Shown one piece after another: positions 12,084 to 56,035 of a stretch of 56,348 nucleotides of DNA. The notes under the pieces are model-generated. The model searched no databases. It saw nothing but the letters and a program-made list of their open reading frames with translations, and was not told where the DNA came from. The stretch is from Alphaproteobacteria bacterium. Lineage in GTDB: Bacteria; Pseudomonadota; Alphaproteobacteria; Micropepsales; Micropepsaceae. Each line of letters begins with the position of its first letter. The stretch's first letter is position 1. Location: the NCBI GenBank assembly GCA_947474565.1, contig CANJIS010000015.1, positions 1-56,348 on the forward strand, read 5' to 3'. Made by a program: the position numbers and the translations under genes.

Positions 12084-15000
12084 TTACTCCGCCGCCACTT
12101 TGGCGCGCGCTGCCTTCATTTCGGTAAGGGCACGGGCGTAATCGGTGGGCATGACCTTGACGAAACGGGTCAGCGCTTCGCTCCAATTGTCCAGAAGGTA
12201 TTTGGCGCGGGCGCTGCCGGTATGGAGCAGATGACGCTCCACCAGAATGCGCAGGCGTTCGGCGTCGAAACGGAGCAGATCGCCCATGCCGGCATCCAGC
12301 ACATGCAGCGAACGCTGTTGCGGCATCTCCGGATCGTCATGGCCAACGGCTTCGGCGATCTTTTCCAGCTTGACCTGGGCCATGTTGCAGCGCGTTTCAA
12401 AGTCGCCAGCCTCGTCATAGACGTAAGCAATGCCGCCCGACATGCCGGCGGCGAAATTGCGCCCCGTCTTGCCCAGCACCACCACCACGCCGCCGGTCAT
12501 GTATTCGCAGCCATGATCGCCATTGCCTTCAACCACCGCCACCGCGCCGGAATTGCGCACGGCAAAACGCTCGCCCGCCACGCCCTGGAAATAGGCTTCA
12601 CCCGAAATGGCGCCATACAAAACGGTGTTGCCGACGATGATGTTTTCCAGCGGATCGCGCTTCACGCCGGCCGGCTGCTTGACCACGATGCGGCCGCCCG
12701 ACAGGCCCTTGCCGACATAGTCGTTGCCGTCACCCACCAGCTCGACCGAGACGCCGCGCGCCAGGAAGGCGCCGAAAGACTGGCCGGCGGTGCCGGTGAA
12801 ACGGATCTTGATCGTGTCTTCGGGCAGACCGGCATGGCCGTGGCGCTTGGCCACTTCGCCCGACAGCATGGCGCCCACGGTGCGGTCCACATTGCGGACG
12901 CTGCGTTCCAGCACCACCGGCTGGCCATGTTCAATGGACGGCAGACTGTGCTTGATCAGGTCGTGATCGATAACGGAATCGAGGGCATGGTCCTGCGCCT
13001 CGCAATTGAAGATCGCAACGCCGGGGGCTGCCTTCACCTGATGCAGAATGCGCGACAGGTCCACGCCCTTGGCCTTCCAATGGGCGACGGATTTCTTCAT
13101 GTCGAGTCTGTCCACCCGGCCGACCATTTCGGCGACGGTGCGGAAGCCCAGTTCGGCCATGATCTCGCGCAACTCTTCGGCCACGAAGAAGAAGTAATTG
13201 ATCACATGCTCGGGCTGGCCGGTGAAGCGCTTGCGCAGCACCGGGTCCTGGGTGGCGACGCCGACCGGGCAAGTGTTGAGATGGCATTTGCGCATCATGA
13301 TGCAGCCTGAGGCGATCAGAGGCGCGGTGGCGAAGCCGAATTCATCGGCACCGAGCAGCGCGCCGATGGCGACGTCGCGGCCAGTACGCAAACCGCCATC
13401 CACTTGCACGGCGATGCGGCCACGCAGGCCATTCAGCACGAGGGTCTGCTGGGTTTCGGCCAAACCGATTTCCCAGGGCGAACCGGCATGGGTCAGCGAG
13501 GTCAGCGGCGACGCGCCGGTGCCGCCGTCATAGCCCGAGATGGTGACATGATCGGCGCGGCATTTGGCGACGCCCGCCGCCACGGTGCCCACGCCCACTT
13601 CCGACACCAGCTTGACCGAAATGCGCGCCTTCTGGTTGACGCTCTTCAGGTCGCGGATCAGTTGCGCCAGGTCTTCAATCGAATAAATATCGTGATGCGG
13701 CGGCGGCGAGATCAGGCCAACGCCGGGGGTGGAGTGACGCACTTTGGCGATATGGGCATCGACCTTGTGGCCGGGCAGCTGGCCGCCTTCGCCGGGCTTG
13801 GCGCCCTGGGCCATCTTGATCTGGATGTCGTCGGAATTGACCAGATATTCGGTGGTGACACCGAAGCGGCCAGACGCCACCTGCTTGATCTTCGACCGCA
13901 TGGAATCGCCATTGGGCAGCGGCACAAAGCGGTCGGATTCTTCGCCGCCCTCGCCGGTATTGGAACGGCCGCCGATGCGGTTCATGGCGATGGCCAGGGT
14001 GGTGTGCGCTTCTCTGGAGATCGAGCCGAAGCTCATGGCGCCGGTGGCGAAACGTTTGACGATGTCGGTCGCCGCTTCGACTTCATCCAGCGGCACGCCT
14101 TCGCCGGTCTTGAACTGCATCAGGCCGCGCAGGGTGAGCAGGCGCTCGCTCTGTTCGTTGATCTCCTGGGCGAAGAGTTGATATTCGGCCGGATTGTTGC
14201 CGCGCACCGCGTGCTGGAGGCGCGAGACGCTTTCCGGCGTCCAGGCGTGATCTTCACCGCGCAGGCGGAACGCAAAGTCGCCGCCCACATCCAGCATGTT
14301 GCGATAGACCGGATTGTCGCCAAAAGCGTTCTTGTGGCGGCGCACGGTTTCTTCGGCAATTTCGTTCAGACCGATGCCTTCCACCGTGGTGGCGGTGCCG
14401 GTGAAGAATTTCCCGATGAACTCCGACGACAGGCCCACCGCGTCGAAAATCTGCGCGCCGCAATAGGACTGATAGGTGGAGATGCCCATCTTGGACATCA
14501 CCTTCAGAATGCCCTTGCCCACCGCCTTGATGTAATTCTTCTGAACTTCGTAGGGCTTGAGCGCCAGGCCCTGACGGACGCGGATCTGTTCCAGCGTTTC
14601 GAACGCCAGATAGGGATTGATCGCCTCGGCGCCATAACCGGCCAGGGCGCAGAAATGATGCACTTCGCGCGCTTCGCCGGTTTCCACCACCAGCCCGGTC
14701 TGCATGCGCAGGCCCTGGCGGATCAGATGATGATGAATGGCGGCGGTGACCAGCAAGGCCGGAATCGGAATGCGGTCCGGCGACGTGGCGCGGTCAGACA
14801 GAATGAGAATGTTGTTGTCCGCCAGCACCGCGTCGGTGGCGTTGTGGCAAACCCGCAAGACCGCGTTGGACAGGCCTTCCGCGCCTTCGATAGCGGGCCA
14901 GGTGCAGTCAATCGTGGCGGTGCGGAACGCGCCGTCCACCAGTTCGGAAATCGAGCGGATCTTCTCCACATCGGCATTGCTCAGCACCGGCTGATGCACT

Positions 15001-16727
15001 TCCAGCCGCTTGTGCACGCCGGCTTCGCGGCCCAGAAGATTGGGACGCGGCCCGATCATGGAGACTAGGCTCATCACCAGCTCTTCGCGGATCGGATCAA
15101 TCGGCGGATTAGTGACCTGGGCGAAGTTCTGCTTGAAGTAATTGTAGAGCAGCTTGGGCTTGTTGGAGAGCACAGCCAAAGGCGTGTCCACGCCCATGGA
15201 GCCGACCGGATCGTCCGGCATCTGGCCCATCGGCTCCAGGAAGAATTGGAGATCTTCCTGGGTGTAGCCAAAGGCCTGCTGACGATCGAGCAACAGGCCC
15301 GGATCATTCGCCTTCGCGCGATGGTCTTCCGGCAGGTCCGGCAGTTCTTCCAGCTTGTACTGCGCCGACTTCAGCCAATCCTCATAGGGTTCGGCCTGTG
15401 CCAGTTTCTTCTTGATCTCTTCGTCTTCGACGATGCGGCCTTCTTCCAGGTCGATCAGCAGCATCTTGCCGGGCTGAAGCCGCCATTTGCGCTTGATCTT
15501 CTCTTCCGGCACCGTAATGACGCCCGACTCCGACGCCAGGATGACCAAGTCATCTTCAGTGACGATGTAGCGCGCGGGGCGAAGGCCGTTGCGGTCGAGC
15601 GTAGCGCCGATCTGGCGGCCATCGGTGAAGGCGATAGCGGCGGGGCCGTCCCACGGCTCCAGCAGCGCAGCATGATATTCGTAGAAAGCACGACGCTTGG
15701 GATCCATGCTCTTGTTGCCGGCCCAGGCTTCCGGGATCAGCATCATCACCGCATGCGCCAGCGGATAGCCGCCGGCCACCAGCAGCTCCAGCGCGTTGTC
15801 CAGGCAAGCCGTGTCGGACTGGCCGTGCGGAATCAGCGGCCACATCTTGTCGAGGTCCGGTCCCAGAAGATCGGACTCCATCGAACGGCGGCGCGCATTC
15901 ATCCAGTTGACGTTGCCGCGCACCGTGTTGATTTCGCCGTTATGGGCGATGAAGCGATAGGGATGCGCCAGCTTCCAGCTTGGGAAGGTGTTGGTTGAGA
16001 AACGCTGATGCACCATCGCGATGGCGGTGGTGGTGAGCGGATTGGTGAGATCGCGATAGAAGCGGCCGACATCATGCGCCAGCAGCAGGCCCTTATAGAC
16101 CACCGTGCGGGTGGAGAAGCTTGGCATATAGAGCTGGGTGATGGCGGGCTGCTTGTGCTTCTTCGCCAATTCCTGAAGCGGGTTCTGAGTCTGCTTGCGG
16201 ATGGTGAGCAGCTTGCGCTCAAACGCATCCTGATCCTTGGTGTGCGGACCCGCGGCCACGATTGCCTGGCGGATCAGCGGCATTTCGTCGAGCACGGTCT
16301 TGCCCAGGCCAGTGGGATCGGTGGGCACATCGCGCCAGCCCAGAAGCTTCTGGCCTTCGATCTTGATGAAATGCTCGAACTGCTTGACCACGATCTCGCG
16401 GGCCTTCGGCTCGCGCGGCAGGAAGCACATGCCCACGGCATACTGGCCGGGCGGCGGCAGGGTGACGCCCGTGTCTTTGGCCCATTCGCGGAAGAGCGCG
16501 TCGGGAATCTGAATCAGAATGCCAGCGCCGTCGCCGACCAGCGGGTCCGCGCCCACCGCACCGCGATGATCCAGATTGATAAGGAGCTGCAGTCCCTGAC
16601 CAACGATCTGGTGGGATTTTTGCCCTTTGATGTTGGCAACAAAGCCCACGCCGCACGAGTCATGCTCGTTCTGCGGATCGTAAAGACCTTGTTTCGGCGG
16701 TAAGCTCATAAATCCCCGTTCAAACAT
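12084..16727 (-). CDS. gltB: Glutamate synthase large subunit
   Basis: 1547 residues. The chain has a short propeptide and then the N-terminal nucleophile Cys of the glutaminase domain in [10 protein letters not shown] (Cys25 from ATG 16727, Cys19 from ATG 16709). A central domain follows, then the FMN/2-oxoglutarate domain with [11 protein letters not shown] and [10 protein letters not shown]. The 3Fe-4S cysteines are in [15 protein letters not shown] (around residues 1140-1151). The Gly-rich C-terminal beta-helix is present. It moves the amide nitrogen of glutamine to 2-oxoglutarate, the core of ammonia assimilation with glutamine synthetase (not in the window). ATG 16709 is an equally good start. 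It heads gltBD. Confidence 0.97.
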
Positions 16728-16842: not shown

Positions 16843-16886
16843 TTGACTCCTGGGGATAGGAGGATACTATGGAACATAACATGAAC
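16843..16886 (+). promoter_or_regulatory. imuA promoter with LexA (SOS) box
   Basis: GAAC-ATAACAT-GAAC at 16872-16886 is a perfect alphaproteobacterial LexA site (GTTC-N7-GTTC on the other strand). A -35-like TTGACT (16843-16848) and -10-like TACTAT (16865-16870) lie 16 bases apart just upstream, so LexA would cover the transcription start. The box overlaps codons 2-6 of imuA as read from ATG 16869, which is unusual. Confidence 0.8.
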
Positions 16887-17660
16887 AGACAAGATAAAAT
16901 ACAGGAATTACGCCATTTTGTTGCCCGCTATGGTCTGCCGCCGGACCGGCCCGTCCAGCCTTTGGGGGTTCCCGGAGCGGATGTGGCCCTGGGGGGCGGG
17001 CTCGCCACCGGCGCACTCCATGAAATTTACGCCCAGGATTGGGCCGCGGGCGGCTTCGCCGCCTGCCTCGCCATCCGCATGGCGGGGAAGAAGCCAGTCT
17101 TCTGGATCAGACCCGATTATGAAGCGCTGGAATATGGCGCTTTGCATGCCCAGGGTTGGGCGGAGCTGGGCGGCGATCCCCGCAATCTCTTTCTTATAAG
17201 AACAGCCAATGCGGCCGAGGCGCTGTCGGCGGCGCACGACATTCTGGGCTGCGCCCATGCCGGCGTGCTGCTGCTGGAAATGTCCGGCAATCCGGCAGCC
17301 CTGGACATGGTGGCTGGGCGCAAATTGAATTTCGCCGCCGGGATGAGCGGCGTGACACCCATTCTGCTGCGCGAAGGCGCCGATATTTTTCCCAGCGCGG
17401 CGCAAACACGCTGGCATGCCGCCTCCGCCTGTTCGGACGGCGATGATTGGGGGCTGCCGACTTTCCGCGCCGAACTGGCGCGCAACCGGCAAGGCCCTAC
17501 CGGCTCCTGGACCCTGACATGGAATCCCGACAATGGACTTTTCCAGCAATGCGCGCGCCAAGAGCACGCGCCGTATGACTCATCCCAGAAGAATTTTGGC
17601 ACTCTGGCTGCCGCGTCTTTCGACCGACCGGTTGATCAGGAAAGACGCGTCGCTTTCTAA
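16869..17660 (+). CDS. imuA: ImuA, SOS mutagenesis cassette RecA-like protein
   Basis: 263 residues, close to the family length. It matches ImuA (SulA/RecA-like protein of the imuA-imuB-dnaE2 cassette): LPPDRPVQPLGVPGADVALGGGLATGALHEI near the start, then the RecA-like core. With ImuB and DnaE2 it supports damage-induced mutagenic synthesis. ATG 16869 has a perfect AGGAGG at 16858-16863; ATG 16881 would suit a nearly leaderless transcript from the promoter described above. The last ~30 residues overlap the start of imuB by 86 bases, longer than usual, and may be a run-on after a lost stop. Since imuB is broken and dnaE2 is absent here, its function is doubtful. Confidence 0.85.
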   Translation: MEHNMNRQDKIQELRHFVARYGLPPDRPVQPLGVPGADVALGGGLATGALHEIYAQDWAAGGFAACLAIRMAGKKPVFWIRPDYEALEYGALHAQGWAELGGDPRNLFLIRTANAAEALSAAHDILGCAHAGVLLLEMSGNPAALDMVAGRKLNFAAGMSGVTPILLREGADIFPSAAQTRWHAASACSDGDDWGLPTFRAELARNRQGPTGSWTLTWNPDNGLFQQCARQEHAPYDSSQKNFGTLAAASFDRPVDQERRVAF

Positions 17661-17970
17661 GGCGCCGCCGCTCGTCATCAGCGGCAAGACAGGCAACACG
17701 CTTTATGTTCATGCGCTGGATGAACGGGCGCAGAGACTGGGCCTTTATAAAGGCCAGCCTTTGGCCAATGCCCGCGCCATGGTGCAGGGCCTCACCACTC
17801 TTCCCGCCGACAGCAAACAAGATTTGGAATTGCTGGATGGCATTGCCGACTGGTGCGACCGCTTCACGCCCTTTGTCGCCGCTGATGCGCCGGATGGTCT
17901 GATTTTAGACGTGACCGGCGCCACCCATCTGTGCGGCGGCGAGGCATTGCGAATACGGCGCAGATTTTGA
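17575..17970 (+). pseudogene. imuB: imuB 5' fragment (Y-family polymerase-like), truncated
   Basis: The frame opens with MTHPRRILALWLPRLSTDRL and continues through LGLYKGQPLANARAMVQGLT and DGLILDVTGATHLCGGEA, which match the first ~125 residues of ImuB (normal length about 500). Homology then stops near 17950 and the frame ends LRIRRRF. The downstream bases belong, on the other strand, to a different gene. The fragment lacks most of the polymerase-like body and the C-terminal region that contacts the beta clamp and partners, so it should be non-functional. An in-frame ATG at 17533 is possible but 17575 fits the family start. Confidence 0.88.
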
Positions 17971-18239
17971 ATCTCCAGCCGGCGCATGCGCGCGGCCTCC
18001 GCCAGCCGGGCCGCTGATTTCAAAAGCCCCGGGGCTACCGCCTGGCGCACCAATTGCGGCGGGTTGATCGCGACCGGGCGGCCGGGAAGATCAACATTGG
18101 GCGCCGGCTGGGCGATGAGAAGGCTGGCGATAAAGACAATGCCCAGCACCGTGCTGACGATCGCCGCAAGCCAGCCCAGAATAGAGATGCGTGCCGCGCG
18201 CCGCCCCGTGGCATCGAAAAAGACCGGCCTGTTTGCCAT
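17955..18239 (-). pseudogene. N-terminal fragment of a membrane-anchored polysaccharide-type enzyme
   Basis: The minus strand from ATG 18239 reads MANRPVFFDATGRRAARISI, followed by a single strong membrane segment (ILGWLAAIVSTVLGIVFIASLL) and a Pro/Arg-rich linker to about residue 94. It then runs into the reverse complement of imuB near 17955. The start resembles large bifunctional polysaccharide deacetylase/glycosyltransferase proteins, which begin with a PVFFDPTGRR-like motif before a transmembrane helix; this assignment is from memory of the motif and moderate only. The catalytic domains are missing. The open frame to 17745 beyond the junction is a shadow of imuB. Confidence 0.6.
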
Positions 18240-18392: not shown

Positions 18393-18755
18393 GTGGGCTA
18401 TAATTGTGCGAAGTGTCCGGGTTACTGCTGTTCCTATCCCGTCATTCCCCTCGTCAAGAAGGATGTGACCAGGCTGGCGGAGCATTTCGGGCTCAGCTTC
18501 AAGGACGCGCGCAAGAAATTCACCAAGGTGGATGGCGACGAGCCCTATGCCATGCGCCGCAAGGCCGATGAGCATTATGGCAAGATCTGCCGCTTCTTCG
18601 ACACCGAGGCCCGGCGCTGCACCATATATAAAGCGCGCCCCACCATCTGCCGCGAATATCCCGGCGGCAACAGCTGCGGCTATTTCGACTTCCTGCGCCA
18701 TGAGCGCGCCACCCAGGAAGACCCGACCCACGTCGCGTCTACATGGAATAAGTAG
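18393..18755 (+). CDS. YkgJ-family cysteine-cluster protein
   Basis: 120 residues with eight cysteines at 5, 8, 12, 13, 66, 76, 86 and 95, in the arrangement CAKCPGYCC ... CRFF ... CTIYKARPTICREYP ... SC. This matches the Fe/Zn-chelating YkgJ-type domain, a metal-binding family of unknown reaction. Start GTG 18393 is preceded by AGGGG at about 18379-18383. The protein is small, soluble and probably cytoplasmic. It lies alone between the imuB deletion scar and the lactate permease gene, so context gives no function. Confidence 0.85.
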   Translation: MGYNCAKCPGYCCSYPVIPLVKKDVTRLAEHFGLSFKDARKKFTKVDGDEPYAMRRKADEHYGKICRFFDTEARRCTIYKARPTICREYPGGNSCGYFDFLRHERATQEDPTHVASTWNK

Positions 18756-18867: not shown

Positions 18868-20532
18868 ATGTTCCATCAGAATTACGACCCGTTTAACAAC
18901 GCGGTCATCTCAACTATCGTGGCCGCGTTCCCGATCGTGTTGCTGCTGGGCTTGATCGCCTCCGGCAAGATCAAGTCCCATTGGGCGGCACTGATCGCCC
19001 TGGCCGCCACGGTGCTGGTGGCGATTGGCGCTTATGGCATGCCGGCCGACATGGCGATCAAGGTCACGGGCCTTGGCTTCGTCAACGGCTTCTTCCCCAT
19101 CGGCTGGATCATCGTCAACGTGATCTTCCTGTACCGCCTTACGGTGGACAAAGGCTATTTCGCCGTCTTCCAGCATTCGATGGGCCAGATCACCCCGGAC
19201 CGCCGTTTGCAGCTGATCATCATCGCCTTCTGCTTCGGCGCCTTCTTTGAAGGCGCGGCGGGCTTCGGCACCCCGGTGGCGGTTTCCGCCGCCATGCTGA
19301 TGGGCCTTGGCTTCTCGCCGCTCGCCGCTTCGGCCCTGTCGCTGCTGGCCGATACCGCCACCGTCGCCTTCGGCGCCCTGGGCGCGCCGATCACCGCGCT
19401 GGCCGCTTCCACCGGGATTGACCCGATGGTGCTGAGCCAGATCGTAGGCCGTCAGTCCTGCGTCTTCTCGCTGATCATCCCCTTTGTGATGGTCTATATG
19501 TTCTGCGGCTGGAAGAAGATGATGGAAGTCTGGCCCGCCTTGGCTGTGGCCTCGCTGGGCTTCACCATTCCGGCCTACCTGATCTCCAACTATTCCAATC
19601 CTTACATCGTGGACGTGGTGGCCGGCGCCGCCGCTCTCGGCTCGATGGTGCTGTTCCTGCGCGTGTGGCAGCCCAAGGAGATCATGACCTCCACCGCCCT
19701 GCGTATTCCGGATGACTCGCACAGCGATGTGAATCCGCCGGTGGTGCTGACCATTGCCCCCACCCGCTCGCAGATGATCAGCGCCTGGGTTCCGTGGGTG
19801 ATCCTGTGCCTGGTTGTGGCGCTGTGGGCCACCGACACCTTCAAGCAGATCGTGGACCCCATCTTCTCGCCGGTCTTCCCGCTTCCCGGCGTGGACAAGA
19901 TGATCATCCAGATGCCGCCGGCCTTCCCGAAGGAAATACCGCTGACGGAAGCCTTGCGCTTCGCCTTCATCAGCTATGCCGGCACCGGCATCCTGGTGGC
20001 GGCGATCATCGCCGGCTTCGTGATGGGCTTCAGCCCGATCGCGATGATCAAGCAGTATGGCAAGACCCTGTGGGTCGTGCGCTATCCGATCCTGACCATC
20101 ACCGCCATGCTGTCGCTGGCGGCGGTGACCAGCGCGTCGAGCATGAACGGCACGCAAGGCCTGGCCTTCGCCCGCACCGGCTTCTTCTACCCCTTCTTCG
20201 GCACCATGCTGGGCTGGCTGGGTGTAGCGGCGACGGGTTCGGACACGGCGGCCAACGCCCTGTTCGGCGGCCTTCAGATGGTCACGTCAAACCAATTGGG
20301 TATCTCTGGCGTGCTGATGGCAGGCGCCAACTCCACCGGCGGCGTGATGGGCAAGATCATCTGCATCTCGTCCATCGTGGTGGCGGTTGCCGCGACCGGC
20401 TGGCAGGGCGGCGAATCCCGTATCCTGCGGTTTGTGTTCTGGTGCTCGGTGATCCTGGGCTTCGCCGTGGGCGTGCTGGCGATGCTGCAAGCCTATGTCT
20501 GGCCCTTCACCCTGACGGTGCCGGTCGGCTAA
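18868..20532 (+). CDS. lldP: L-lactate permease (LctP/LldP family)
   Basis: 554 residues with about 12-14 hydrophobic membrane segments. Family landmarks include FGAFFEGAAGFGTPVAVSAA, ALGAPITALA, a TSASSMNGTQGLAFARTG region and GVMGKIICISS near the end. It imports lactate (and glycolate in some members) with protons across the inner membrane. GGGGGA just before ATG 18868 is a good ribosome binding site. No lactate dehydrogenase is adjacent, but malate synthase G follows downstream; together they would suit growth on C2/C3 acids (inference). Its transcript ends at a strong terminator. Confidence 0.93.
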   Translation: MFHQNYDPFNNAVISTIVAAFPIVLLLGLIASGKIKSHWAALIALAATVLVAIGAYGMPADMAIKVTGLGFVNGFFPIGWIIVNVIFLYRLTVDKGYFAVFQHSMGQITPDRRLQLIIIAFCFGAFFEGAAGFGTPVAVSAAMLMGLGFSPLAASALSLLADTATVAFGALGAPITALAASTGIDPMVLSQIVGRQSCVFSLIIPFVMVYMFCGWKKMMEVWPALAVASLGFTIPAYLISNYSNPYIVDVVAGAAALGSMVLFLRVWQPKEIMTSTALRIPDDSHSDVNPPVVLTIAPTRSQMISAWVPWVILCLVVALWATDTFKQIVDPIFSPVFPLPGVDKMIIQMPPAFPKEIPLTEALRFAFISYAGTGILVAAIIAGFVMGFSPIAMIKQYGKTLWVVRYPILTITAMLSLAAVTSASSMNGTQGLAFARTGFFYPFFGTMLGWLGVAATGSDTAANALFGGLQMVTSNQLGISGVLMAGANSTGGVMGKIICISSIVVAVAATGWQGGESRILRFVFWCSVILGFAVGVLAMLQAYVWPFTLTVPVG

Positions 20533-20645: not shown

Positions 20646-22814
20646 ATGCCCGACACCGTCTCCACCAACGGCCTGAAAGTCGACAAGCTTCTCTACGATT
20701 TCATCGAGAAGGACGCCCTGCCCGGCACCGGCGTCGCCAGCGATGCCTTCTGGAGCGGCTTCGCCAAATTGGCGCACGATCTGACGCCCAAGAACCGCGC
20801 GCTGCTGGCGAAACGCGACCAGCTTCAGGAACAGATCGACGAATGGCACACCGCCCGGCGCGGCAAAGTTTTCGATGTGAAGGAGTATGAATCCTTCCTG
20901 CGCAATATCGGCTATCTGGAACAAGAAGGTCCGGATTTTTCCATCACGACACCAGAAGTGGACCCGGAAGTTGCGATGCTGGCGGGACCGCAATTGGTGG
21001 TGCCGCTGTCCAATGCGCGTTTCGCGCTGAATGCCGCCAATGCCCGCTGGGGCAGTCTTTATGATGCGCTCTATGGCACCGACGTGATCGAGCAGACCGG
21101 CGATATGGCGGCAGGCAAGGGCTACAATGAAAAGCGCGGTCAGGCGGTGATCGATTATGCCCGCAGTTTTTTGGATCAGGCGGCGCCGCTGAAGGGCGCT
21201 TCGCACAAGGACGCCAAGAGCTATGCCATCAAAAACGGCGCGCTGGCCGTCACGCTGAAGAATGGTTCCGAAGCCAGTCTGGCCAAGCCGGAACAGTTGG
21301 CGGGCTATCTGGGCGAGGCCGGTGCGCCTTCCTCCATCCTGCTCAAGAATAATGGCCTTCACGCCGAAATCGTGATCGACCGCACGTCACCCATCGGCAA
21401 GACGGATGCCGCAGGCGTCGCGGATGTGGTGCTGGAATCGGCGCTGACCACCATCCAGGATTGCGAAGATTCCATCGCCGCAGTGGATGCCGAAGACAAG
21501 GTCGCCACCTACGCCAACTGGCTGGGCCTGATGAAAGGCACCTTGACCGCCCGGTTTGAAAAAGCCGGCAAGATGATGGACCGGGCGCTTAATCCCGACC
21601 GGGAATTCACCAAGCCGGGTGGCGGCACGCTCACTTTGCCGGGCCGCAGCCTTCTGTTCATCCGCCATGTCGGGCATCTGATGACCACACCCGCCGTCTT
21701 TCTTCAGGACGGCAGCGAGATTCCGGAAGGTATTCTGGATGGCGTGGTCGCCAGCCTGATCGCGCTGCATGATCTCAAGCGCAACGGCAGCCGCATCAAC
21801 AGCCAGAAAAACTCCATCTATGTCGTCAAGCCCAAGATGCACGGCCCCGCCGAAGCGGCCTTTGCAGGCGAGATTTTCGACCGGGTGGAAGACCTGCTCG
21901 GCCTTGCCCGCAACACAATCAAGATCGGCGTGATGGATGAGGAACGCCGCACCTCCGTCAATCTGAAGGAAACCATCCGTGCGGTGGAAGACCGCATCAT
22001 CTTTATCAACACGGGCTTCCTGGATCGCACCGGCGATGAGATGCACACCTCGATGCAGGCTGGCCCCATGATCCGCAAGGGCGACATGAAGTCGTCGCAA
22101 TGGCTGAAGAAATACGAAGACCGCAATGTTGATATCGGTCTGGCGTGCGGCTTCCAGGGCAAGGCGCAGATCGGCAAGGGCATGTGGGCGATGCCCGACA
22201 AGATGGCGGACATGATGAAGGCCAAGATCGGCCATCCCGAAGCGGGCGCCAACACCGCCTGGGTGCCCTCACCCACCGCCGCCACGTTGCACGCGATGCA
22301 TTATCACAAGGTGGATGTGAAGGCGCGTCAGGACGAGATCAAGTCACGCCCCAAGACCGGCGTGGACGCCATCCTCGCCATTCCGGTGGCCGACCGCCCG
22401 AACTGGTCGGAGATGGAAGTGCGCGAAGAACTGGACAACAACATCCAGGGCATTCTCGGTTATGTGGTGCGCTGGATCGACCAGGGCGTGGGCTGTTCCA
22501 AGGTGCCGGATATTCACAATGTGGGCCTCATGGAAGACCGCGCCACCTTGCGCATCTCCAGCCAGCATGTCGCCAACTGGCTGCTGCACGGCGTTACCAC
22601 CGAGGCCGAAGTGAAGGCTGCGTTTGAGCGCATGGCCAAAATCGTGGATCACCAGAACAGCAAGGACCCGGCCTATACGCCCATGGCGCCCAGCTATGAC
22701 GGCGTTGCCTTCAAAGCCGCGCGCGATCTGGTGTTCAAAGGTTTGGTGCAGCCCAACGGCTATACCGAGCCGCTGCTGCATGCGGCGCGCCAGGTGAAAA
22801 AAGCCGAGCGCTGA
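20646..22814 (+). CDS. glcB: Malate synthase G
   Basis: 722 residues, the length of the G isoform. Landmarks: the N-terminal [38 protein letters not shown] with the catalytic Arg region, [40 protein letters not shown] and [21 protein letters not shown] carrying the acidic active-site residue. It condenses glyoxylate with acetyl-CoA to malate in the cytosol. It is monocistronic: a terminator precedes it and two terminator-like hairpins follow. No isocitrate lyase or glycolate oxidase gene is in the window. Confidence 0.96.
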
Positions 22815-26293: not shown

Positions 26294-26314
26294 ATTCAAA
26301 CCCTTGGTTTGAAT
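26294..26314. repeat. Palindrome adjoining the tRNA 3' end
   Basis: ATTCAAAC-CCTTG-GTTTGAAT, perfect 8-base arms, touching the CCA end of tRNA-Arg. There is no T-run in the tRNA's direction. It could be a processing or att-like site, but no integrase is near. Confidence 0.4.
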
Positions 26315-26390
26315 GGCGCGCTCGAAGAGATTCGAACTCCTGACCCTCAGATTCGTAGTCTGATGCTCTATCCAGCTGAGCTACGAGCGC
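26314..26390 (-). tRNA. tRNA-Arg (anticodon ACG)
   Basis: 77 bases including an encoded CCA (26314-26316). The acceptor GCGCTCG pairs with CGAGCGC. The D arm reads AGCTCAGCTGGATAGAGC, the anticodon arm CAGACTACGAATCTG with ACG centred in the loop, and the T arm has GTTCGAATC. The A34 is expected to be edited to inosine to read CGN codons. Confidence 0.97.
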
Positions 26391-45490: not shown

Positions 45491-45588
45491 CGGTGGAAGC
45501 CGGCACGACCCGAAGCAAATTCGTTACGGCTGCTTCGTTCCCGACCTGACCGGATTGGCGACAGCTTCGTCCGCACCGACTTCCGGGA
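45491..45588 (-). ncRNA. ffs: Signal recognition particle RNA (small bacterial type)
   Basis: The minus strand contains CCGGTCAGGTCGGGAACGAA then GCAGCCGTAACGA, the conserved apical loop and internal bulges that bind Ffh. Flanking arms GGAAGTCGG... and ...CCGGCTTCC close the hairpin, giving about 97 bases; the exact ends are estimated. With Ffh it targets nascent membrane proteins. The position ahead of dnaX-recR is common in alphaproteobacteria. Confidence 0.93.
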
Positions 45589-54178: not shown

Positions 54179-54440
54179 ATGCTGCGTCTCGCCCCCCGAC
54201 TGATGGTTGTTTTCCTGTGTGGTGCCGCCCTTGCCGGCTGCGCCAGCGGCACCAGCAAAGTGGCTTCTGCACCGGCTGAAAAAAAGAACGCGCTCACGAA
54301 TTTGCCCACCGATCTGGAGGGCAGCATCCGCTAGGCACAGTTGCAGCGCGCCGCCGGCAATTATGACGACGCCATTCGCACCGCTTCGCAGCTCATGCTT
54401 GTGGCGGGCGACGATCCGCGTGTCGCTTCCGAATATTGGC
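54179..54440 (+). pseudogene. TadD-like TPR lipoprotein, nonsense codon and lost 3' end
   Basis: From ATG 54179 the frame gives MLRLAPRLMVVFLCGAALAG with lipobox LAGC, then LTNLPTDLEGSIR and a TAG at 54332-54334. The same frame continues beyond as AQLQRAAGNYDDAIRTASQLM then LVAGDDPRVASEYW, which matches the first TPR of TadD-type Flp pilus lipoproteins. A CAG (Gln) to TAG change explains the stop. After about 54440 the similarity ends and lower-GC sequence begins. So the gene is broken twice. No other tad genes are present. Confidence 0.75.
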
Positions 54441-54516
54441 CTGCCCATACCCCGTTCATGTCCGGTTCATGTTAGGTTTAGATATTGAGCGTCTATCTAT
54501 TTTGGGGGGATTTTTA

Positions 54517-56035
54517 GTGGAGCAGTCAAAAGCACTTTTTGTTGCCGTGTTAGCGTCTTCTCTTTTCTTCTTCTCGCCGGTTTCATTTGCGGCCACACAG
54601 GGGGAAGAAGCAAAACGGCTTGACCGCATCGAGCAAGAAAATCGTGAACTGCGAAAAGACATTGAGGCACTGAAGGCGATCAGTGTTCGCCACAGAAAGC
54701 ACAACTCGGATTTTGGATCGTCTGGCCAGGCAATATCTGGCGATCAGGCCCATGAGGCTGCGGGACCTTCGAGGTCCGAGCGAATTGCACATGGCGACAG
54801 GATTCTGAACCTCAACAGCGAATTCAGCTATCAAATGCTAAATCCTACAACGTCCGGAAAATCAAAACCCCTGACATTGCTGAGAGCCAAGCAGGACGGA
54901 AGCATTGGAGCGGATGGGGTCTATCTAGGGGGGGGCGCTAACCGCACTTGCTGATTACCAGCTGGCCGATCATTCCGGCCAGTTCGGATACATGATGCGC
55001 CAGCCCGAAAATCAAATCGGGCGTACTGCATCCGAAGCGGTTTTGCATTCTGCGCAATTTAGCGTAACGGCAAATATTGAGACATGGATCTCTGCATATG
55101 CCGAAGCCTTGTGGGACCCAGAACAGAGTTTTGGCGCTGGCACTATCACCTCATTGAATCGAAATGAACTTCAGCTTCGTAGGGGATACGTTCTTTTGGG
55201 CGACCTTGATGAATTTCCTGTCTATTTGATGCTGGGAAAAATTGATTCTCCTTTCGGTCAGACAGACACAGTAAATCCATTCTCGCTCGCGACCGACTGG
55301 CACACGTTTAGCGGGCTTTCTTACGGCGCGTTGCTGGGTTATTCTTCCAACGGCCTAAATGTCACGTTCGAGGCTGTTCAGGGTGGGGCGGAATTCCGCG
55401 GATTGAATACGCCAGTGGGCGGCACAAACGTTCCGAGCAGTCTTAACAACTACGTCATTGATGCAAATTATACCCTGTCTTTGGGTGGCGAAGACCGAAC
55501 GTTTTTGGTCGGCGCCTCGTACGAAGCAGGAAGTTCCTATTGTCAAAGTTTTCCGGTTGCCCACTTTGATTCCTGTGCGGTATCAAATCCTGCCTACGCT
55601 GTTTACAGCGCGCTGAGCTGGGGCGCATTTCGGCTCAAGGGGGAGTACGCAGAGACTGTCAACGTGTGGCCTGGGACTTTTAATCCAAACCCTCCGCTCA
55701 ATGTTTTTCCGGCAAGTAAGGTTTCCAGCTTTGATTTAGGAGGGAAGTACATAACCTCGGTTCTGGGTCGGGAATTAGATCTGTCCGTGGACTACAGCGC
55801 CCTTATCGCAGGCCCTGCCGGTTCGCCATGGGAACAGCAGAGCCAAGCTGTATTCGGCGCAGGTTATTTTATAAGGCCAAACGTAAAGCTGTTTTCCGAA
55901 GTTGTGCTCGTACATGGCTACGAACCATTGATGTTTATCAGTGGGGGTATTCCAGGAGATCCTCCCGGTCAAACCGACAGCAATGCCCATTCGAATTCTC
56001 AGATATTGCTGACGGGGATAAATCTCGCGCTTTAA
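54517..56035 (+). pseudogene. Outer membrane porin, LbtU-like, with frame break at a G8 tract
   Basis: GTG 54517 follows GGGGGGA and starts a signal peptide (VEQSKALFVAVLASSLFFFS, then PVSFAA). A coiled coil (AKRLDRIEQENRELRKDIEA) and about 80 residues follow, then GVYLGG at a run of eight G (54928-54935) where the frame shifts. With seven G it would continue ALTALADYQLADHSGQFGYM into the long second frame, ending at 56035. That part is beta-rich with VYLMLGKIDSPFGQTDTVNP, a pattern like LbtU/DUF3573 siderophore porins, and ends in hydrophobic L. GC content is visibly lower than the rest of the window. It is either phase-variable, a pseudogene or a sequencing error. Confidence 0.7.

Follow-up and report, generated by a model that had tools for sequence, protein, structure and literature searches.

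In the window, the whole 56,348-nucleotide stretch of DNA analysed here, the imuB gene of an imuA-imuB-dnaE2 cassette breaks off part-way and is followed, 11 bases later, by the inside of a convergent gene with a GH18/polysaccharide deacetylase/GT2 counterpart in relatives (hereafter gene X). Comparison with a related genome in which the locus is whole (G009) shows what is missing between the two, and neither DnaE2 nor a complete ImuB is present in the assembly. A single deletion that disabled the ImuA-ImuB-DnaE2 mutasome, one of at least five independent losses in the clade, is very probably the explanation. The cassette and its loss are already known, and the window holds a gene loss of known kind; a single scar is ordinary, and the recurrence is the notable part.

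The join and the missing sequence

The window is contig C15 of a 2.18 Mb genome (G000) assembled in 39 contigs and 99.84% complete. Features around the join are collected in Table 1. On the left, imuA or its remnant lies next to gltB on the same contig in 24 of the 28 genomes of the clade, a set of one genome per species delimited by a gltB identity (best piece) to the window's of 84% or more. The last gene of the right flank, which was used as a marker of synteny and in tree building, we take from its sequence to be of the malate-synthase-G type.

Table 1. Features of the window at and around the join (strand: + forward, - reverse)
Feature	Position	Strand	Basis
gltB, glutamate synthase large subunit, left flank	12084..16727	-	Pfam/NCBIfam, synteny
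LexA box GAACATAACATGAAC (GAAC-N7-GAAC) over imuA start	16872..16886	+	motif match, conservation
imuA, complete open frame	16881..17660 (start 16869 or 16881)	+	NF033429 1.5e-06, below cut-off; 66-68% to G009 ImuA
imuB 5' remnant, codons 1 to ~140 of 523	17533..17949	+	homology to G009 ImuB, PF00817
Join (probable deletion junction)	17946..17956	.	11 bases without alignment to either side; 8,954 bp present in G009 missing
5' remnant (codons 1-94) of GH18/polysaccharide deacetylase/GT2 gene X (1140 aa in G009)	17957..18239	-	
CxxCxxCC (PF03692) protein gene, right flank	18393..18755	+	Pfam, synteny
lctP-type lactate permease gene, right flank	18868..20532	+	Pfam/NCBIfam, synteny
malate-synthase-G-type gene (malG), right flank	20646..22814	+	synteny with G009

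The imuA frame runs for 263 codons without a stop, and the ImuA of G009 likewise falls below the NCBIfam ImuA cut-off in a profile search. Downstream, the forward ORF 17533-17970 is 71% identical to the first 138 codons of G009 ImuB (523 aa; tblastn 1e-61) and matches the IMS family PF00817 (1.4e-05); beyond the join its frame continues without homology to a chance stop at 17970. On the opposite strand, ORF 18239-17745 resembles the N-terminus of the 1140-aa protein of G009 over its codons 1-94 (79%, 6e-44), and this frame too continues past the join, to 17745, without homology. The DNA alignment to G009 stops at 17945 and resumes at 17957. The first-pass annotation had placed the end of imuB homology after HLCGGEA, and these are indeed the last residues of the stretch common with G009 ImuB. 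It had also placed the inside of the opposite-strand protein that starts at 18239 within about 10 bases of that point, in keeping with the 11 unaligned bases, and had described both facing genes as lacking their 3' parts; in G009 both are complete, arranged and oriented alike, with about 9 kb between them. On the evidence of the alignments, chance is excluded as the source of the two homologies that meet at the join.

Matches to the imuB remnant occur in 68 of 100 genomes, the window's own counted. Those of at least 50% identity outside G000 lie in open frames of 507-618 codons, compared with 150 in the window; the exceptions are G011 (314 codons) and G030 (1158, with one TGA inside).

The G009 locus (L072) reads gltB, imuA, imuB, dnaE2, a 462-aa gene, convergent X, CxxC and lctP. 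Its imuB and X face each other, and the 8,954 bp between the aligned edges hold the rest of imuB, dnaE2, the 462-aa gene, which is PMT_2-like (match below cut-off), and the rest of X. DnaE2 of G009 is 1066 aa long and scores 1355 bits with NF004225 (cut-off 939), the GH18, polysaccharide deacetylase and GT2 domains of X are found from residue 118 on, and the IMS_C (253-350) and DUF6504 (445-520) domains of ImuB both fall in the part lost from the window. A single chromosomal deletion of ~9 kb would join the interior of imuB to that of convergent X, removing imuB codons ~141-523, all of dnaE2, the 462-aa gene and X codons ~95-1140. The earlier proposal that the rest of imuB, possibly dnaE2, and the body of the other gene had gone is supported; dnaE2 is counted among the lost genes, and the 462-aa gene has to be added.

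DNA and protein searches of G000 show that no other part of the assembly carries the missing genes. A DNA search with the entire G009 stretch as query returned three places, namely the two remnants and a 90-bp match inside a gene scoring as a replicative DnaE (DnaE1). A protein search of the G000 assembly for DnaE2 found none; its only match, at 29%, is a replicative-type DnaE that scores 1251 bits with the replicative Pol III alpha model (cut-off 1002) and 604 with the error-prone model (cut-off 939). A complete ImuB was not found in the assembly either, the protein matches being the remnant and DinB only, of which DinB lies above the NCBIfam Pol IV cut-off (630 vs 371). An intact imuB-dnaE2 on another contig had been named beforehand as grounds for giving up the first-pass reading, and none turned up. 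A dnaE2 on an unbinned contig, which would speak against a deletion, is conceivable in an assembly of 39 contigs.

One deletion is the simplest reading of the join and is well supported. Two or more overlapping deletions are rather unlikely. Relatives do lack individual parts of the stretch: X alone is absent from G059, G035 and G041, whose cassette is complete, and the cassette is likewise complete in G014, G055, G017, G030, G106, G102 and others, which lack the 462-aa gene. However, one event suffices for a single join with 11 odd bases. Neither an IS end nor a direct repeat was found at the join by inspection of the 11 unaligned bases, by word comparison or by a 12-mer check in the window, and 11 unaligned bases leave no room for an IS. 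The longest word common to the 600-bp surroundings of the two G009 edges is 10 bp, within the 8-12 bp given by 30 shuffles, G009 being in this microhomology check a stand-in for the parent that differs by roughly a quarter at the join.

It is very unlikely that the ends of the locus were wrongly joined in assembly and that the 9 kb are still in the cell. Although the assembly breaks at IS-like copies elsewhere, the join sits inside a 56-kb contig, the 901-bp region around it occurs once in the genome, and none of the 12-mers in 17930-17970 is found a second time in either strand of the window. The short common word at the G009 edges also argues against misassembly, as do the lack of a match to the missing 9 kb on any contig, bar the 90 bp inside DnaE1, and the within-contig losses at the same locus in five other species.

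With a deletion as the preferred reading, the ImuA-ImuB-DnaE2 mutasome of the window's organism is predicted to be non-functional: it has no polymerase, and what remains of ImuB does not include the parts tying it to ImuA and DnaE2. Among the features of a functional mutasome, the window has an open imuA and the LexA box; missing are the ImuB thumb, little finger, RecA-NT motif and ImuB-C, together with dnaE2. The claim that the mutagenic SOS cassette is disabled thus finds support by inference, dnaE2 being gone and ImuB being cut before IMS_C and DUF6504. DinB is still present in the genome.

Recurrent loss in the clade

The genes imuA, imuB and dnaE2 stand side by side in 20 of the 28 clade genomes, with dnaE2 cut by a contig end in G036 and G104. 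The resident cassette has been lost in 8 of the 28 species; six losses can be read inside a contig, and their breakpoints differ. The missing stretch runs from imuB ~140 to X 94 in G000, from imuA ~114 to X ~46 in G108 (L105), where imuA has two TAG stops, from imuA ~96 to dnaE2 ~856 in G015, where 35 dnaE2 codons remain, and from imuA ~75-80 (with a TAG) to dnaE2 ~1003 in G018, where a frameshift follows near 1030. G006, called empty, has only a weak trace of the imuA start region (31%, 8e-06) between gltB and CxxC, and in G008 gltB adjoins the 3' end of X, the resident cassette being gone. Two cases are weaker, both in MAGs that are 86% complete: the G044 contig ends 332 bp after gltB, and in G039 imuA enters sequence without a useful match at codon ~180 and then meets the contig end.

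Parsimony on a gltB tree of 27 clade genomes and three outgroups (G017, with 93 aa of gltB, was left out) requires at least 6 changes, or 5 without G044 and G039. The window's event would then be one of at least five independent cassette losses in the clade. Eight of 28 species at one locus, with remnants from fresh, as in the window, to nearly gone, make up a natural series. This series lets one ask at what point inducible mutagenesis is no longer worth its cost to a bacterium, and whether genome size, LexA or habitat predicts this.

Of the other within-contig losses, that of G108 comes closest to the window's, and its missing stretch encloses that of G000. An old deletion common to both, after which G108 lost a further ~0.9 kb, is nevertheless highly improbable. 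A malG+CxxC tree (16 rows) does not reject G000+G108 (p-AU 0.26), but the gltB tree groups G000 (97/93) with G009, whose locus is whole, two tests with gltB in common each reject G000+G108 (p-AU 0.009), and G000 has neither the two imuA stops nor the broken LexA box of G108. The malG+CxxC tree gives the same topology as gltB, weakly (70/47). A concatenation for five genomes, for which twelve proteins were offered and 5,200 of 6,025 columns retained, gives G000+G009 at 81/84, rejects G000+G108 (p 0.009) and does not reject G108+G009 (p 0.29). G009 lies inside the trio under either topology, and the losses in G000 and G108 are therefore separate.

Some further observations concern these genomes. 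A second contig of G008 (C327, L109) carries a distant cassette, with imuA 30%, imuB 45% and dnaE2 52% identical to those of G009, which points either to replacement through transfer or to contamination. Two very different kinds of permease occupy the position between CxxC and malG in the clade, one 59-88% and the other 34-35% identical to that of the window (e.g., L072 and L073), as if swapped in place. In the wider genus (69 genomes), no imuA match and DnaE2 matches of only 26-30% were obtained for G021, G042, G043, G050, G058 and G105, three of which are 79-82% complete, and there are partial cases such as G005, G033 and G103. For want of a gltB match, the last of these is not among the 28; its DnaE2 is 75% identical, and imuA gave no match.

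The LexA box, the age of the event and its possible drivers

The LexA motif of Caulobacter is given as GTTCN7GTTC in an excerpt of one report (PMC12700426). In the clade, all eight half-site bases of the box over the imuA start are identical in each of the 20 genomes with imuA, imuB and dnaE2, and mean conservation, 0.97 in the box, is 0.64 over the 40 bases that precede it and 0.84 over the 30 coding bases that follow. After cassette loss, imuA and its box would be expected to decay. Of five remnants, G000 and G039 have an intact box and G108, G015 and G018 a broken one; the difference between 20/20 full cassettes and 2/5 remnants has a Fisher p of 0.0043, which is only indicative because related genomes are not independent. 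Decay of the box once the genes are lost is independent evidence that it serves this operon. In four lexA neighbourhoods and at a second lexA locus of G108, lexA is itself preceded at close range by a box of this type, GAACTAAAGTAGAAC.

Inspection by eye of 25 aligned genomes finds the ATG at 16881, inside the box, in all 25 and the ATG at 16869 in three. TTGACT and an ATTATA-like element that ends at the box occur in most relatives (by eye), and the imuA message may therefore be leaderless. A second GTTC-N7-GTTC match occurs in the window at 54454-54468, near the 5' end of ORF 54436-54954; a tRNA-Arg lies at 26314-26390 and a small SRP RNA at 45491-45585. G036, a 58%-complete MAG, has two different imuA starts (C49 and C176), each with a LexA box, representing either two strains or a duplicate.

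The deletion appears, with moderate confidence, to be recent, because imuA is open, the LexA box is intact and substitutions are not relaxed. Changes were counted on the G000 and G009 branches with G051 or G108 as outgroup, the counts being too small for dating. With G051, N/S is 12/21 on the G000 branch and 12/15 on the G009 branch for imuA (Fisher p 0.60), 5/12 and 7/11 for the imuB remnant (p 0.73), and 5/10 and 1/8 for the X remnant (p 0.35). With G108 it is 4/14 and 1/8 for imuA (p 0.64) and 58/162 and 28/143 for gltB (p 0.02); judged by gltB, the G000 branch is somewhat faster in general, which makes the small counts hard to read. Against a recent date stand the somewhat more numerous amino-acid changes of the X remnant on the G000 branch and the failure to find LexA in G000, which clouds what an intact box means. 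That the leftovers are kept for use, with ImuA alone or with the ImuB N-terminus still acting, is extremely unlikely: imuA and the imuB remnant are stop-free and not relaxed and the box is intact, but a recent deletion predicts the same state, the remnants of G108, G015 and G018 do decay, and G000 has no DnaE2.

LexA (TIGR00498) was found in 64 of the 69 genus genomes, with no match in G000, G014, G025, G031 and G104. The place where lexA is expected in G000, beside comEC and gltX as in G108, is a contig break between the start of C1 and the end of C17. There, C1:1-235 and the end of C17 (52025) carry the same 143 bp of a transposase start in opposite orientation (L125, L140), presumably IS3-type to judge from the peptide. 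The comEC-to-trpD stretch of G108 has only one 42-bp match in G000 (E 7e-4), and the absence of lexA, comEC, trpC and trpD reflects either loss or an unbinned contig. In G108 itself LexA is matched at full length twice (174.1 and 172.5 bits; C1 and C21; L127 and L143), with a LexA box just upstream in each case.

It is quite improbable that selection repeatedly purged the cassette in small-genome members of the clade and that in the window's species this was tied to the loss of LexA. On such a reading lexA would have disappeared from between IS copies together with comEC, trpC and trpD, and a cassette permanently on in its absence would be costly, so that deletion would be favoured. LexA loss was rejected as the cause, since the other seven losers have LexA, and G014 (95% complete), with no LexA match, keeps the whole cassette and box. 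Estimated genome size is smaller in the eight losers than in the 20 keepers (Mann-Whitney p 0.0025, with sizes rounded and species not independent), and the same holds for the five losers against the 14 keepers at 90% completeness or more (p 0.029). With 4 pairs on starred branches and 6 on all, too few for the purpose, a pairs test of size gave a median p of 0.5. Genome size is not claimed as a driver, the pairs test being without power and G059 keeping its cassette at 1.8 Mb.

Comparison with known systems

A search of open-licence PubMed Central (titles and abstract starts of the best matches) found no account of repeated loss of the cassette within one genus. Parallel loss of DnaE2 and ImuB has been described across deep bacterial lineages, as far as the excerpted text goes (PMC9927291). 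The same genes are lost repeatedly there and in this clade; however, those losses concern deep lineages, whereas here they fall in one clade of a genus, with readable breakpoints and remnants in various states of decay.

The copy of the GH18/polysaccharide deacetylase/GT2 fusion in the window keeps its first 94 codons, 79% identical to the G009 protein, but lacks all three Pfam domains.

Cassettes of the imuA-imuB-dnaE2 type are those of Caulobacter, Pseudomonas and Mycobacterium; in excerpted text they are termed ImuA-ImuB with DnaE2A, and even the most reduced ImuB is said to retain the little finger, thumb and ImuB-C (PMC12926913). The C-terminal extension of ImuB is described, in an excerpt of another study, as essential and as binding both ImuA and DnaE2 (PMC6511836). 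Relatives of the window's organism have the same gene order and the GAAC-N7-GAAC LexA box. The window retains imuA, the box and the 5' part of imuB, but with imuB cut at codon ~140 and dnaE2 absent, it holds the scar of such a cassette and not a working one.
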